Of a DNA stretch of 64,000 bases, positions 1 to 5,724 are shown piece after piece (position 1 is the first letter of the stretch; each line of letters starts with the position of its first letter). A model generated the notes under the pieces. The model was not told the DNA's origin. It did not search any database and saw only the letters and a list, made by a program, of their open reading frames with translations. The stretch comes from an uncultured Alphaproteobacteria bacterium (GTDB taxonomy: Bacteria; Pseudomonadota; Alphaproteobacteria; Micropepsales; Micropepsaceae). A program made the position numbers and the translations under genes. The stretch covers positions 248,001 through 312,000 of the forward strand of contig CADEFU010000003.1 in the NCBI GenBank assembly GCA_902826695.1. Reading direction: 5' to 3'.

Positions 1-159
1 GCCCAACACCGGAAACGCCGGAAGCAGAGCGATCGCATACGACACCGGCGCTGCCGGCGGATGATTGGTGAACATCCAGGTCACGCCGAGGACGGCGACG
101 ACGTAAGCGAGCATCGTTGGGATGAACCAAGCGATGTAACGTCTTCTGGCGGTGTTCAT
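1..159 (-). CDS. Small membrane protein, partial (C-terminus outside window)
   Basis: The first 53 codons of a leftward gene are visible; the rest lies off the window. The start ATG at 159 is preceded by AAGGA with 8 bases between, a good ribosome binding site. The N-terminus has three arginines (MNTARRRY) followed by a hydrophobic segment (about residues 9-30), a short polar stretch with NHPP, and the beginning of a second hydrophobic segment, so a small multi-pass inner-membrane protein is likely, with positive charges inside. I do not recognise the family. A perfect inverted repeat lies 33 to 57 bases upstream. Confidence 0.6.
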   Translation of the reverse strand, partial: MNTARRRYIAWFIPTMLAYVVAVLGVTWMFTNHPPAAPVSYAIALLPAFPVLG

Positions 160-191
160 GACAAGCTTCCTTGCTGTTATGACAAGGAACA

Positions 192-216
192 TTGACATCT
201 TGAGGTGCGATGTCAA
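192..216. promoter_or_regulatory. Perfect 8-bp inverted repeat, candidate operator
   Basis: TTGACATC and GATGTCAA form a perfect 8-bp inverted repeat around a 9-bp spacer. On the minus strand TTGACA (216-211) could also serve as a -35 hexamer with a weak AATGTT 17 bases on, so the dyad would overlap the promoter of the membrane gene starting at 159. Repressor operator is an inference; no regulator gene is visible nearby. Confidence 0.4.
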
Positions 217-254
217 GCAACCTTTACAAAAAATTGGCTTGATGAGTTTTTGAT

Positions 255-262
255 GATAATAT
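255..262. repeat. Left copy of 8-bp target-site duplication
   Basis: GATAATAT directly abuts the left inverted repeat of the transposon and is repeated exactly at 3065-3072. Eight base pairs is the duplication size known for the IS1595 family. It overlaps a promoter-like sequence (TTGGCT at 234, 17-bp spacer, TAATAT at 257). Confidence 0.85.
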
Positions 263-285
263 CGCATATATATACTTGACAAACA
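263..285 (+). repeat. Left terminal inverted repeat
   Basis: This 23-bp end begins with CGCA and continues with the 19-bp core shared with the other end. Mismatches to the right end are at positions 1, 3 and 4. It contains TTGACA (276-281), the apparent -35 hexamer of the transposase promoter. Confidence 0.85.
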
Positions 286-304
286 GACCGGCTAGCCCTA
301 GATA
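276..304 (+). promoter_or_regulatory. Transposase promoter, -35 inside the inverted repeat
   Basis: TTGACA (276-281), a 17-bp spacer and TAGATA (299-304) form a sigma70-like promoter reading into the transposase. The predicted start of transcription, about 7 bases after the -10, is near 311, which falls at the end of the left arm of the adjoining hairpin. Confidence 0.55.
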
Positions 305-324
305 AGGTCTCAGAAACGAGACCT
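305..324 (+). promoter_or_regulatory. Hairpin over the transposase ribosome binding site
   Basis: AGGTCTC (305-311), loop AGAAAC and GAGACCT (318-324) form a perfect 7-bp stem four bases before the start codon at 329. The only Shine-Dalgarno-like bases (GAG at 318-320) are in the right arm. Transcripts entering from outside would carry both arms and hide this site; transcripts from the element's own promoter would begin at or inside the hairpin and lack most of the left arm. Confidence 0.6.
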
Positions 325-328
325 GGCC

Positions 329-1267
329 ATGAGCATCCTAGACGCCCCCTATTTCCGCGACGATGAAGCGGCCTACGCCAAGCTCGAATCGGTCATGTGG
401 CCGTCCGGCCCAGAGTGCCCGCACTGCGGCGTCATCAATGATGCCCGCAAGATTGCGGCAAATCCGGCGAAGAAAGTCCGCCTCGGCCTCTACCGCTGCA
501 ACGGCTGCAAAGCCCAATTCACGGTGACGGTCGGGACGGTTTTCGAGCGCAGCCATATCCCGCTGCACAAGTGGCTGCAAGCCGCCTACCTGATTTGCTC
601 GTCCAAGAAAGGCATCAGCGCCAAGCAGATCGAGCGCACGGTGCAGGTCACCTACAAGTCCGCTTGGTTCATGATGCACCGCATCCGCGTGGCGATGGAC
701 CCGATCATCAAGACACCCGGCGAGCCTATCGGCGGCGCGGGCAAGATCGTCGAAGCGGACGAAACCTACATTGGGCGCAAGAAAGGCATGGAGAAGAAGC
801 GCGGCGGGTTCGACCATAAGCACGCGGTGCTCGGGCTTGTAGAGCGCGGCGGCGACGTCCGCACGTTTCATATCGACCGCGCGACGAAGGGTCTTGTGAA
901 GTCCATCGTTGACCAGCACGTCCGCCCGGAGACGCGTCACTACACGGACGGCGCGGCGATCTACGAAAACAACGCTATGGGCCTCCAAGGCGGCCACGAT
1001 TGGGTTGACCACGGTCGAGACGAATACGTTCGCGGCGACGTTCACACCAACACGATTGAAGGCTACTTCTCGATCTTCAAGCGCGGCATGAAGGGCATCT
1101 ACCAGCATTGCAGCGAGAAGCACCTTGTGAAGTACCTCGCTGAATTCGACTTCCGCTACAACAACCGTGAGGCGATGGGCGTTAACGACAGTAAACGCAC
1201 GGACCATGCGCTAAAGGGCGCGCGCGGGAAGCGTCTCACTTATCGGCGGATTGACACACGGGTCTGA
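329..1267 (+). CDS. IS1595-family transposase
   Basis: This 312-aa protein is the DDE transposase of the element. It has an N-terminal zinc ribbon (CPHC at residues 30-33 and CNGC at 57-60), a helical region with the family's SAWFMMHRIR motif (about 111-120), then the ISXO2-type catalytic domain with ADETYIG (D144), YTDG (D207) and HTNTIEG followed by FKRG (E244, K251). Length and motif order are as expected and the frame is intact. Translation is probably limited by the hairpin at 305-324. The long open frame on the opposite strand is a shadow. Confidence 0.93.
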   Translation: MSILDAPYFRDDEAAYAKLESVMWPSGPECPHCGVINDARKIAANPAKKVRLGLYRCNGCKAQFTVTVGTVFERSHIPLHKWLQAAYLICSSKKGISAKQIERTVQVTYKSAWFMMHRIRVAMDPIIKTPGEPIGGAGKIVEADETYIGRKKGMEKKRGGFDHKHAVLGLVERGGDVRTFHIDRATKGLVKSIVDQHVRPETRHYTDGAAIYENNAMGLQGGHDWVDHGRDEYVRGDVHTNTIEGYFSIFKRGMKGIYQHCSEKHLVKYLAEFDFRYNNREAMGVNDSKRTDHALKGARGKRLTYRRIDTRV

Positions 1268-1398
1268 CTCAAAACGCCGCATACGAAAACGCGACTTGAG
1301 CCGCTGACTCTGCTGTGCGAGTCTTGGTTGGGCATGCGGAACAACCTCGGCCGGGAGGCCCTGGCATCTGACGGGACGGTCGCCACCCTTGAGGCGGC

Positions 1399-2307
1399 CT
1401 AGAAAGCCCTAGGAGCAGACGAGGCCGGTGCCCACCATTGCTTCGGATAGCCATAGAACTTGAAGATTTCTTGTTGTTCCGCCGTGAGCTTTGCCGCTTT
1501 GAATCCTGGAAGCAGTTTGACGCCGTAGCCTGAAATTTGTCCGCCGACTTTGTCGGGCGCGCGTGCCATTCGATCATGCAATAGTTTGGCATACGACGCA
1601 TCACACGGGCCGCTTTCAGCGCAGTCTGCCGCTTGGAAGAACGCTCCGGCGACCACATCCGCGAGCTTTAACCCCGCTCGGCTTTGATGCGGATACACCT
1701 CAAGCAAGTGCGAATGCAGCGTGTCCCACTCGATGTCGCCCGCCGTCAAGAACATGTTATCCGCGCGGCTTTTCGGTCTGATCCATTCATAGTAGGCCCT
1801 CATCTGCGCGTATCTTAGACCACCTCGCTCGCTGTACTCGACTTTGAGACGCTTAACCTCGCCGTATTTTGCGCGCGAGTGAGCCGCCACGAAGTGGGTC
1901 ATTCTCTCAAGCAGGACGCGAGTCAGCCAGCAGTAGAACCAATTGTCCGAGGGAACCTTGGCGGCGTTTTGGTTGTTGTAGCCCTCCATGTTCTTCTTGT
2001 TTGATGCCACCACGAAGCAACGCAAAGGCAGCGCCGCAACCGATCTGCACAACGTGGTGCGACCCGCGACGTTCAGTTTGGAGAAGTGAATGTCTTTGAG
2101 TTGCTTGCTCGGAAGAGAATCGCGCGCTGCCTTGATCCAGTGCGGGACCTCCGCCTCGCGCTCGGCGTCGATCACGACGCCAGAGACAATCAGCCACTCG
2201 CTAGAGCCAGCCGTTGCACGAGTTTTGATACGTTTCAGGCCAGGATCGCCAGACTCGTCAACGTATGCTACGTAATGATATTCGGGCTTCTGGATACCGG
2301 CACTCAT
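1399..2307 (-). CDS. DUF3800 domain protein, transposon cargo
   Basis: This 302-aa protein begins with the DUF3800 signature YVDESGDPG at residues 15-23, the acidic motif at the end of strand 1 in this RNase H-like family. Further acidic residues, including D in LKLADVVAG near the C-terminus, fit the family. DUF3800 proteins occur mostly on mobile elements and near defence genes; their biochemical role is not settled, a metal-dependent nuclease being the usual guess. I chose the ATG at 2307 because the DUF starts just after it; an upstream ATG at 2337 would overlap the divergent gene. The two start codons overlap on opposite strands in the sequence CATG (2305-2308). Confidence 0.85.
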   Translation of the reverse strand: MSAGIQKPEYHYVAYVDESGDPGLKRIKTRATAGSSEWLIVSGVVIDAEREAEVPHWIKAARDSLPSKQLKDIHFSKLNVAGRTTLCRSVAALPLRCFVVASNKKNMEGYNNQNAAKVPSDNWFYCWLTRVLLERMTHFVAAHSRAKYGEVKRLKVEYSERGGLRYAQMRAYYEWIRPKSRADNMFLTAGDIEWDTLHSHLLEVYPHQSRAGLKLADVVAGAFFQAADCAESGPCDASYAKLLHDRMARAPDKVGGQISGYGVKLLPGFKAAKLTAEQQEIFKFYGYPKQWWAPASSAPRAF

Positions 2308-2506
2308 GGCACGCACGAAAACGAAAAAACGGGACACAAAGAATCAGCATACAGCGTTCAAGAAGGCCGCGCGTGAACTAGGGTGCGACCAACGCGAGGG
2401 CGCATTTGATGCTGCGCTGGGCAAGCTGGCGCGATCAGCGCCGGTGCCGAAACCGAAGCCACGCCCGGTGCGGCGCAAGCCGTTGCTCGTATTCGATGAC
2501 GTATGA
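2306..2506 (+). CDS. Small basic protein (66 aa), transposon cargo
   Basis: A lysine/arginine-rich N-terminus (MARTKTKKRDTK) is followed by AARELGCDQREGAFDAALGKLAR and a proline/lysine tail. The ELGCD...AFD..L.K.A pattern resembles a widespread family of short uncharacterised proteins found on mobile elements and phages in alphaproteobacteria (from memory). A DNA- or RNA-binding role would fit the charge but is a guess. It diverges from the DUF3800 gene with overlapping start codons, so each gene's promoter must lie inside the other's coding region or transcription must come from elsewhere. Confidence 0.6.
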   Translation: MARTKTKKRDTKNQHTAFKKAARELGCDQREGAFDAALGKLARSAPVPKPKPRPVRRKPLLVFDDV

Positions 2507-2547
2507 GGCCCGGCTCCACCGTTGTTCTATCCTCGGGCCACACGCGC

Positions 2548-2718
2548 TTACACCTCGTAGACTGGTGCGGTATAGCTACGCTTCACTAGGTTAACCCCAT
2601 CTAGCGCATCACTTTTGTTCCAGTAGGCTTCACCAGAGTCCGCAATCGTGCGATGATTCTCGGACTTAAGACGCCAGCGCCATTGGTTGTGCCTGTCGCG
2701 GTAGATTTCGTAGTACAT
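2548..2718 (-). CDS. DUF1508 (YegP-like) protein, 56 aa, transposon cargo
   Basis: The minus strand encodes a 56-residue protein starting MYYEIYRDRHNQWRWRLKSE and continuing with IADSGEAYWNKSDALDGV and LVKRS. This is the compact DUF1508/YegP fold pattern: aromatic strand, WRWRL, I-A-x-S-G-E-x-Y, then a helix with the I/V-x-x-V-K motif. A single repeat is present, as in short family members. The gene is intact with a TAA stop. Its function is unknown. It converges with the 66-aa gene (41 bases between the stops) and its ATG overlaps the ATG of the next rightward gene in CATG (2716-2719). Confidence 0.8.
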   Translation of the reverse strand: MYYEIYRDRHNQWRWRLKSENHRTIADSGEAYWNKSDALDGVNLVKRSYTAPVYEV

Positions 2719-2962
2719 GGATGTCACTCCGATGGATGATGAAAGATACGCGACACACTTGTTCAGCTACCCGTTCGAGGGTGCGAAATGGACCATCGAC
2801 ATCCGGGCAAGGGATGCAGATGAAGCTCAGCGTCGGCTGCGGGCTCTGGCGTGGGCCACCTATGACGGTGTGCTCGTTGCCAGAGTCCCAGCGGCTCCCG
2901 GCGGGCTCATTTCGCGACTCGGATCAGGGCTGAGGCGCATCGCAAGGACCATCCTCCGCTGA
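2717..2962 (+). CDS. Small protein (81 aa), transposon cargo
   Basis: The protein contains FSYPFEGAKWTIDIRARDADEA, RLRALAWATYDGVL and ARVPAA before a basic amphipathic C-terminus (GLRRIARTILR). I recall similar short proteins with an F-x-Y-x-F-E-G-x-x-W start and a D-G-x-L-x-A-x-I/V-P motif in alphaproteobacterial accessory DNA, but no function. The start may be ATG 2717 or, perhaps better, ATG 2732 (MDDERYATH), which would avoid overlapping the divergent DUF1508 start. It is the last gene before the right end of the transposon. Confidence 0.6.
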   Translation: MDVTPMDDERYATHLFSYPFEGAKWTIDIRARDADEAQRRLRALAWATYDGVLVARVPAAPGGLISRLGSGLRRIARTILR

Positions 2963-3041
2963 GTCGGGGGTAAAACCACATGCTTTCGTAGCGATATCCC
3001 ACGATTAGTTGTGGAAGGCCCCTATGCTACCCATGGGGTGT

Positions 3042-3064
3042 TGTTTGTCAAGTATATATACACC
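3042..3064 (-). repeat. Right terminal inverted repeat
   Basis: Read on the minus strand this end begins GGTG and continues with the same 19-bp core as the left end. On the plus strand it contains TTGTCA (3045-3050), a possible outward-facing -35 hexamer placed 16 bp before TAATAT (3067-3072) in the target duplication. Confidence 0.85.
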
Positions 3065-3072
3065 GATAATAT
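3065..3072. repeat. Right copy of 8-bp target-site duplication
   Basis: GATAATAT, identical to 255-262, starts at the base after the right inverted repeat. It carries the -10-like TAATAT (3067-3072) that belonged to the uninterrupted target promoter. Confidence 0.85.
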
Positions 3073-3131
3073 GATTGACGTGTCGAGGCGGCGTTCCTAC
3101 ATCGGTCTCAGCACTTCGGGAGCAAGAAGCG

Positions 3132-3421
3132 ATGAGCAAACTGAATATAGGAGTCGGCGAGGAGTTTCCGTTGGACGACGCGCCGAGGAGCGAGCGCCAT
3201 CATCCTTGTGGCGCCCATTGGCGCACCGCATGCGCCGTCGCCACCATCGGCATCGTGCCGTCGCCACACTGCTGGTGTTGCCCGCGGCCGCCGCATCGGT
3301 GACAGCGGCAATCCTGTACCCGCTCGCGACATTGGGCGTGATCGGTGGGCTGGGTGCCGCGACTGCGATCTACCGTCACGCGCGCCGCGATGGCGCGAAC
3401 CCGCCGCAGGAGCAAAAGTGA
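3132..3421 (+). pseudogene. Small membrane protein gene, probably frameshifted
   Basis: An ATG at 3132 opens a frame reading MSKLNIGVGEEFPLDDAPRS then a His/Arg-rich stretch to HWR (codons ending at 3224). The neighbouring frame continues from there with HRMRRRHHRHR, a hydrophobic segment and a basic tail, ending at 3421. Neither half looks complete: the first frame turns into Cys/Pro-rich nonsense and stops at 3302, the second has only an internal ATG at 3230 (63 aa). The MSKLNIGVGEEFPLDD start resembles small alphaproteobacterial proteins (memory). A one-base loss near 3224, a sequencing error or a -1 ribosomal shift would each explain it. The transposon ends 60 bp upstream. Confidence 0.5.
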
Positions 3422-3681
3422 TGCGTCACCACGGATTTCATCACCGCCGCGCCGCCGCGGAAGGTGATCGCACGACGACGCGCGTCCAACTCGAACTCCC
3501 GCCGCAAGCAATGGAACGTCTTCAGCGACTTAAAGAGAAGACGGAAGCGGCATCCTATGCGGAAGTCATCCGCAACGCGCTTCGTCTGCTCGAAGCCCTC
3601 GTCGACGAACACGACAAAGGTGCCGAGTTCACGCTTCGCAAGCCCGATGGCGAGACGATCGCCTACAAAATCTTCGTCTAG
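3421..3681 (+). CDS. Ribbon-helix-helix (CopG-like) DNA-binding protein, 86 aa
   Basis: After a basic start (MRHHGFHHRR) comes TTTRVQLELPPQAMERLQRL and a second helix SYAEVIRNALRLLEALV, the beta-helix-helix layout of the RHH/CopG/MetJ fold (about residues 17-60), then a C-terminal strand region ending in YKIFV. RHH proteins bind operators as dimers. The ATG shares one base with the TGA of the preceding frame, and GGAG lies just upstream, so translation is coupled to the small membrane gene. It may regulate that gene; this is inferred from position only. Confidence 0.72.
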   Translation: MRHHGFHHRRAAAEGDRTTTRVQLELPPQAMERLQRLKEKTEAASYAEVIRNALRLLEALVDEHDKGAEFTLRKPDGETIAYKIFV

Positions 3682-3688
3682 AAATGCT

Positions 3689-3710
3689 GAGGGGGCCGAT
3701 CGGCCCCCTC
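3689..3710. terminator. Palindromic bidirectional terminator
   Basis: A perfect 22-bp palindrome (GAGGGGGCCGA and its complement) lies between the convergent ends of the RHH gene and ccrM. There is no T-run, so termination may be inefficient or factor-assisted. Confidence 0.55.
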
Positions 3711-3716
3711 GAAGCG

Positions 3717-4829
<1,113 letters not shown>

Positions 4830-5118: not shown

Positions 5119-5724
5119 TCAACTCGCGAAACGCAACTTCAACTGCGCGATCGGCGCAAAGCTTCTGCGATGATGTGCCGTCGGCCCCAGCCGATCGAGC
5201 GCGGCCAAGTGATCGGCCGTCCCATATCCTTTGTTGCGCGCCCAGTTGTAACCTGGATGCGCCGCGTCGAGTTCACACATGATGCGATCCCGCGTCACCT
5301 TGGCGACGATCGAAGCCGCCGCGATCGACATCGACTTCGCGTCGCCCTCGATGATCGTCTCGACCGGGCAGGCGAGGGCAGGGGCGCGGTTCCCGTCCAC
5401 GAACGCCATGACGGGCGCGAGCGAAAGCTGCTCCGTTGCCCGCCGCATGGCGAGCATCGTCGCTTGCAGGATGTTGATCTCGTCGATCTCCTCGACGCTC
5501 GCGCAGGCGATGCCGACGGCGAGCGCCCGCTCCATGATCTTCTCGAACGCCTTTTCGCGGGCCTCGGCCGTCATCGCTTTGGAGTCATCGAGTCCGCGCG
5601 GCAACCGTGCCGGATCCAAGATCACTGCGGCGGCAAACACGGGGCCGGCCAACGGTCCACGCCCAACCTCATCGATCCCCGCAACGGGGCCGTCGATCTT
5701 CCGTTCGCGCGTAAAAGACGGCAT
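5119..5724 (-). CDS. rnhB: Ribonuclease HII
   Basis: The 201-aa enzyme cleaves RNA embedded in duplex DNA, including single ribonucleotides. GIDEVGRGPLAG (residues 16-27) carries the first two metal ligands D18 and E19; D110 in FVDGNRAPAL and D128 in IEGDAKSMSIAAASIVAK complete the DEDD centre, and the C-terminal HHRRSFAPI motif is present. The usual DSKKLS motif reads DSKAMT, a mild deviation. Length is normal. It lies between the radical SAM gene (45 bp upstream) and ccrM, the order known from other alphaproteobacteria. Confidence 0.96.
   Translation of the reverse strand: MPSFTRERKIDGPVAGIDEVGRGPLAGPVFAAAVILDPARLPRGLDDSKAMTAEAREKAFEKIMERALAVGIACASVEEIDEINILQATMLAMRRATEQLSLAPVMAFVDGNRAPALACPVETIIEGDAKSMSIAAASIVAKVTRDRIMCELDAAHPGYNWARNKGYGTADHLAALDRLGPTAHHRRSFAPIAQLKLRFAS

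Follow-up and report, generated by a model that had tools for sequence, protein, structure and literature searches.

An IS1595-family unit transposon carrying DUF3800 and a small basic protein shared with its alphaproteobacterial relatives

The element and its insertion site

The window analysed here is a stretch of 64,000 nucleotides from contig CADEFU010000003.1 of an uncultured Alphaproteobacteria bacterium (Micropepsaceae; assembly GCA_902826695.1). Inspection of its sequence places an element of the IS1595 family at positions 263-3064 (2,802 bp), with the following features:

255-262, no strand: left copy of the target-site duplication GATAATAT, present as a single copy, GATTATAT, in relative G091
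263-285, plus strand: left terminal inverted repeat, with an inward TTGACA
329-1267, plus strand: IS1595-family transposase, 312 aa (Pfam, NCBIfam, residues invariant in 28 sister elements)
1399-2307, minus strand: DUF3800 protein, 302 aa from ATG 2307, predicted RNase H-fold nuclease and main cargo (Pfam, invariant residues, fold)
2306-2506, plus strand: p66, type A small basic protein, 66 aa, pI 10.8, whose start overlaps that of DUF3800 within one CATG
2548-2718, minus strand: DUF1508/YegP-type protein, 56 aa from ATG 2718 (59 aa from GTG 2727; profile match 1e-13)
2717-2962, plus strand: p81, 81 aa, phrog_2920 protein, divergent partner of DUF1508 with a CATG start common to both
3042-3064, minus strand: right terminal inverted repeat, with an inward TTGACA
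3065-3072, no strand: right copy of the target-site duplication GATAATAT

The two inverted repeats are 23 bp long and match at 20 of 23 positions, and the 8-bp duplication GATAATAT is exact on both sides. The 19-bp repeat core, TATATATACTTGACAAACA, was found at two places only, which are the two ends of the element (0 expected by chance). An unoccupied site exists in the genus relatives G091 and G087 (n = 2), where the flanks joined with one GATAATAT match continuously. At the G091 junction, TGATGATATTTTGATGATTATATGATTGA versus TGATGAGTTTTTGATGATAATATGATTGA, 26 of 29 bases are identical and a single GATTATAT is present, and in G087 the alignment crosses the insertion junction without a gap. 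The left flank (1-262) as sole query had no match in the genus, conservation being limited to 23 bp by the junction. The ends, the duplication and the unoccupied site demonstrate past mobility of the element. In its own genome it is present in one copy with a single transposase, and no second insertion was found there.

The initial annotation had described a complete IS1595-family transposon with these boundaries and had anticipated empty sites with a single copy of the duplicated sequence. All of this was borne out, the transposase adding strong family matches. It had also suggested a compound carrier, which we reject, because a compound (composite) transposon requires two flanking IS copies; one transposase and one genome copy make this a unit transposon.

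Some 60 bp separate the insertion from a downstream start codon conserved in the genus (MSKLNIGVGEEFPLDD...), that of the gene at 3132-3302, and the element may therefore alter the expression of this gene. Just downstream of the insertion are genes for a CcrM-like DNA methyltransferase (3717-4829) and an RNase HII (5119-5724), both named from sequence alone.

The transposase and its sister elements

The transposase matches the Pfam families Zn_ribbon_IS1595 and DDE_Tnp_IS1595 (5e-12 and 7e-30) and NCBIfam transpos_IS1595 (5e-54). Zinc ribbon and DDE_Tnp_IS1595 domains, inverted repeats and an 8-bp duplication place the element in the IS1595 family, and, with DUF3800, DUF1508 and p81 enclosed by the repeats of a single IS, it has the layout of a transporter IS.

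About 40 transposase relatives were taken from the same family of genomes and screened for repeats and an 8-bp duplication; since the order holds one family, the order-level genome search repeated the family-level one. Fetched relatives and earlier loci gave 28 bounded elements of 2.0-3.4 kb with the repeat consensus GGCGATTATATACTTGAC, an exact 8-bp duplication in 27 of them and an extra 1-2 kb or so in all 28. The zinc-ribbon cysteines C30/C33/C57/C60 and residues D144, D207, N241 and E244 are invariant across the 28 elements. About 27 are complete sister elements with one or two cargo genes each. Plasmids of Roseomonas, Methylobacterium and Bradyrhizobium carry elements of the same build with exact duplications; Sulfitobacter and Pseudosulfitobacter loci contain the transposase and the small gene, and a search for element ends in them found none. 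The transposase tree puts the window element in one group with L021, L024 and L026 (support 92/83).

TTGAC occurs within 22/28 left ends and 11/28 right ends of the bounded elements. The inward TTGACA of the repeats could serve the transposase as a -35 box; that of the right end could do the same for cargo on the minus strand. A 973-bp deletion derivative (L055 4587-5559, G023:C86) shares its perfect repeats with the full-length L048 and contains a DUF3800 fragment and the small gene, which makes it a non-autonomous IS1595 element.

p66 and the small basic proteins

Profile searches returned no family match for p66. Two small-protein profiles, type A (the p66 type) and type B (the EDDVLRRMLKTPPKPH type), were each built from a subset of elements; applied to the elements held out, both recovered the small gene (A, 2e-15 to 8e-7; B, 1e-10 to 3e-5). 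One of the two types is present in 25 of the 28 complete elements, with a looser look-alike in the other three (L124, L015 and L019). A single family comprising both types was rejected, as the hhalign probability was only 6%; their homology is thus unproven, though their layout is alike. The association with the transposase is close: 41 of 60 small-protein loci examined in 96 genomes have one within 1.5 kb, against about 0.3% expected, and several of the loci without a nearby transposase sit at contig ends.

The DUF3800/p66 and DUF1508/p81 pairs each begin in one CATG palindrome, with start codons overlapping by two bases (window 2305-2308 and 2716-2719; further shared CATG starts at L048 5889-5892, L229 760-763 and L024 4009-4012). 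L048 and L024 have the same arrangement for DUF3800/p66, whose starts abut in L026, and G008 has it for DUF1508/p81. The lack of intergenic space is thus conserved in both divergent gene pairs and across several elements. The overlap means that each promoter lies within the partner gene or beyond it, and mutual antisense control of the pairs is possible.

Head-to-head genes with overlapping start codons in several elements could indicate that p66 is a cargo partner of the DUF3800 nuclease, for instance an antitoxin or adaptor, the two forming a toxin-antitoxin-like pair on a transposon. The small-protein type also partly follows the cargo, type A occurring with DUF3800, RusA-like and PIN cargo and type B with RNxxxH proteins. 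Against such a pairing, all 12 DUF3800 loci with an IS1595 transposase or its remnant have a type A gene, compared with 4 of 29 without (Fisher p about 2e-7, indicative only because the loci are non-independent), and in two of these four the sequence ends on the transposase side. Type A also accompanies unrelated cargo, and on the transposase tree the small-protein type changes six times, less often than the cargo (ten times). The pair L059 and L136 is the most direct case: over their first 1,171 bp, which take in the left end, the transposase and most of the small gene, they share 77% identity, and their final 23 bp match, yet in between one carries DUF3800 and the other an RNxxxH protein unrelated to it. 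The small gene was retained and the cargo swapped, and p66 is most simply taken as part of the core. We therefore regard a p66-nuclease partnership as unlikely. Across the group, p66 is a hallmark of these transposons and would most simply be part of their mobile core. The core itself (left end, transposase, p66, right end) is co-inherited across Alphaproteobacteria, and the genes between are exchanged and mostly nuclease-like.

DUF3800

The main cargo protein scores 32.2 bits against Pfam DUF3800 (PF12686), above the cut-off of 21; like the profile match of DUF1508, this agrees with the families first assigned to the two genes. Their starts were corrected, DUF3800 best beginning at ATG 2307 and DUF1508 at ATG 2718. 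The AlphaFold model of DUF3800 (pLDDT 78.7) has RNase HII/HIII as its best match (Foldseek 6e-4, VIA-align Z 11.4). All nine sequences compared retain D17, E18, D21, E134 and D217, and the DExGD motif is likewise invariant. At sequence level, neither Pfam RNase_HII nor any PDB sequence was matched, so that the likeness is one of fold, and we predict DUF3800 to be a nuclease with an RNase HII-like fold.

Six complete elements share the arrangement of DUF3800, transposase and p66, namely that of the window and those of Azospirillum (L021), Phenylobacterium (L024), a MAG (L026), G023 (L048) and IMG/VR (L110). They have six different 8-bp duplications, and partial elements exist besides. L110 has a response-regulator receiver domain gene (4344-4700, 119 aa) as second cargo. 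The DUF3800 tree intermixes IS-borne copies with those of phages and chromosomes, and the context changes at least ten times, which implies that DUF3800 was taken up more than once. DUF3800 genes with 24-54% identity to that of the window are also present on IMG/VR contigs (L081-L109) and in Rhizobium phage RHph_TM3_3_3; these phage and prophage contigs lack the IS1595 transposase and p66.

In the literature, DUF3800 is termed an RNase H-fold nuclease and is found beside Cas12a2 and VI-F systems (PMC10910872, PMC12669027). The initial annotation had placed DUF3800 near defence loci, a link supported indirectly by published accounts in which certain CRISPR loci have it as an RNase H-fold accessory; PADLOC, in contrast, had no match for any of the five proteins of the window element. 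Guidance of DUF3800 by a non-coding RNA was considered and is not favoured: an Rfam search for DUF3800-I and related RNA, which covered window positions 1-4000 and 11 relatives and would have passed over overlapping or unknown RNAs, gave no match, and non-coding space is scarce.

An RNase H-fold nuclease located in a transposon recalls TnpB of IS200/IS605, and DUF3800 might likewise serve the element's own transposition or retention as an ncRNA-associated nuclease acting at the donor or empty site. This would accord with the reported links of DUF3800 genes to ncRNAs and to Cas12a2 and VI-F loci, and with a clade of elements from several hosts that retains DUF3800 with its transposase. Most sister elements, however, move without DUF3800, its tree is interleaved as described, and alongside the empty Rfam result the L021 element has almost no non-coding space. 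We consider a TnpB-like role highly improbable.

Other cargo of the group

DUF1508 and p81 look like a separate two-gene cassette. The only family matched by p81 is phrog_2920. A survey of 96 genomes turned up p81 once more and DUF1508 twice more. Both genes coincide at G008:C236, again as this divergent pair, and their neighbours there are a type B small gene, an RNxxxH gene, a fragment of a transposase and an end resembling the repeats. Judged by this gene content, G008:C236 is a second, decayed IS1595 element. Four cargo genes had been proposed for the window element. DUF3800 stands as true cargo, recurring in five other complete elements with different duplications, and DUF1508 and p81 form their own cassette, found in one other place only; the 66-aa protein is linked to the transposon and is not cargo.

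DUF3800 is also the cargo of L124 and L136 on another branch. The remaining elements carry HNH_5 (L152), PIN (L219, L220) and RusA-like genes (L125, L140, L150, L155), the latter assigned with caution because the Pfam match is weak (0.07). L156 combines GmrSD_N with an RNxxxH protein, and PADLOC matches PD-T4-2_A and NsnA there. In L219 and L220 (Roseomonas and Methylobacterium plasmids), a protein of about 270-290 aa, which could be a PIN partner, is followed by the PIN/VapC protein and a type A small gene. Helical RNxxxH proteins are the cargo of eleven elements; R100 and H105 are their only invariant columns, and they have weak Pfam HEPN matches. As the AlphaFold model was poor (pLDDT 65.7) and Foldseek gave no useful match, the assignment rests on the motif and the weak Pfam scores; an A4 profile search against PDB sequences yielded nothing meaningful. 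We suspect that these proteins are HEPN-like. The element L223 on a Bradyrhizobium sp. Ash2021 plasmid (22/22 repeats, type B small gene, RNxxxH cargo) is broken by a nested IS256-family element. Cargo that is not nuclease-like occurs in L006, L143, L015 and L019 and, with the response regulator, in L110, which is a point against reading the group as a nuclease carrier.

Such genes, together with the existence of one-off genes and the fact that IS1595 passengers have long been known, would fit ordinary passengers, acquired by chance and of no selected function for the element. Against this, elements from different orders carry DUF3800, nuclease-like genes turn up repeatedly among the other cargo, and a second IS1595 element again has the DUF1508-p81 pair. 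We judge chance acquisition an improbable account of the group.

Proposed role and significance

The element is, in our view, probably a unit transposon of the transporter IS type, with a core that exchanges mostly nuclease-like cargo, p66 as an accessory and the nuclease paying for its carriage. Since the same core occurs with other nuclease-like genes in relatives, the group looks like a standard carrier of exchangeable nucleases. The transposase would cut at the repeats and insert the unit with an 8-bp duplication, and p66 may assist transposition or help to regulate the element. The nuclease cargo would earn its place either by attacking foreign nucleic acid, from phage or rival elements, or by giving an advantage to cells in which the element is retained; a role in defence or retention is accordingly conceivable for it. 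We count against this explanation that the element is single-copy, that PADLOC was blank for its own genes and that three elements have a loose look-alike of the small protein. More tentatively, the alphaproteobacterial IS1595 elements might be a platform of two components, the transposase and a small basic protein as its obligatory cofactor, for the transport of interchangeable nuclease modules of one gene each, DUF3800 among them, with a function in defence or element protection; we hold this to be possible and somewhat doubtful.

Our results suggest that the transfer of single-gene nuclease modules between bacteria is not confined to large transposons and prophages but also involves very small insertion sequences, and that the IS1595 machinery includes a protein of about 60 residues that has been overlooked. 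The small protein is a searchable mark for more such cargo, including defence genes missing from current libraries, and the sisters L059 and L136, with their swapped cargo, allow what the core does to be told apart from what the cargo does by experiment.

Comparison with known systems

Transporter IS of the IS1595 family with passengers are already known (Siguier et al., 2009, as cited in PMC3129680 and PMC8101967) and share with the present elements the zinc-ribbon and DDE_Tnp_IS1595 transposase, the 8-bp duplications and passengers within the repeats. Passengers per se are therefore not new. A conserved small basic protein or nuclease-biased passengers were not reported for IS1595 in the literature searched, which did not extend to Siguier et al. 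(2009) itself; the stereotyped small protein, the nuclease-biased cargo and the clean cargo swapping are what our analysis adds, and this is no proof of novelty.

RNase HII/HIII is the best fold match of DUF3800, whose first strand bears a DExG motif like that of RNase HII. DUF3800 differs in lacking a sequence-level match and in having insertions, and E134 and D217 need not sit as in RNase HII. The DUF3800 proteins near Cas12a2 and VI-F loci (PMC10910872, PMC12669027) are of the same Pfam family and RNase H fold, whereas that of the window has no CRISPR array, Cas gene or TPR domain and is transposon-borne beside a small basic protein. Tn7-like transposons (PMC8649781) likewise combine a transposon core with exchangeable defence-type cargo, including HEPN and PIN genes. 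They do so with multi-protein machinery and much larger cargo, in contrast to the one transposase and one to three genes that the IS1595 group fits into 2-3.4 kb.
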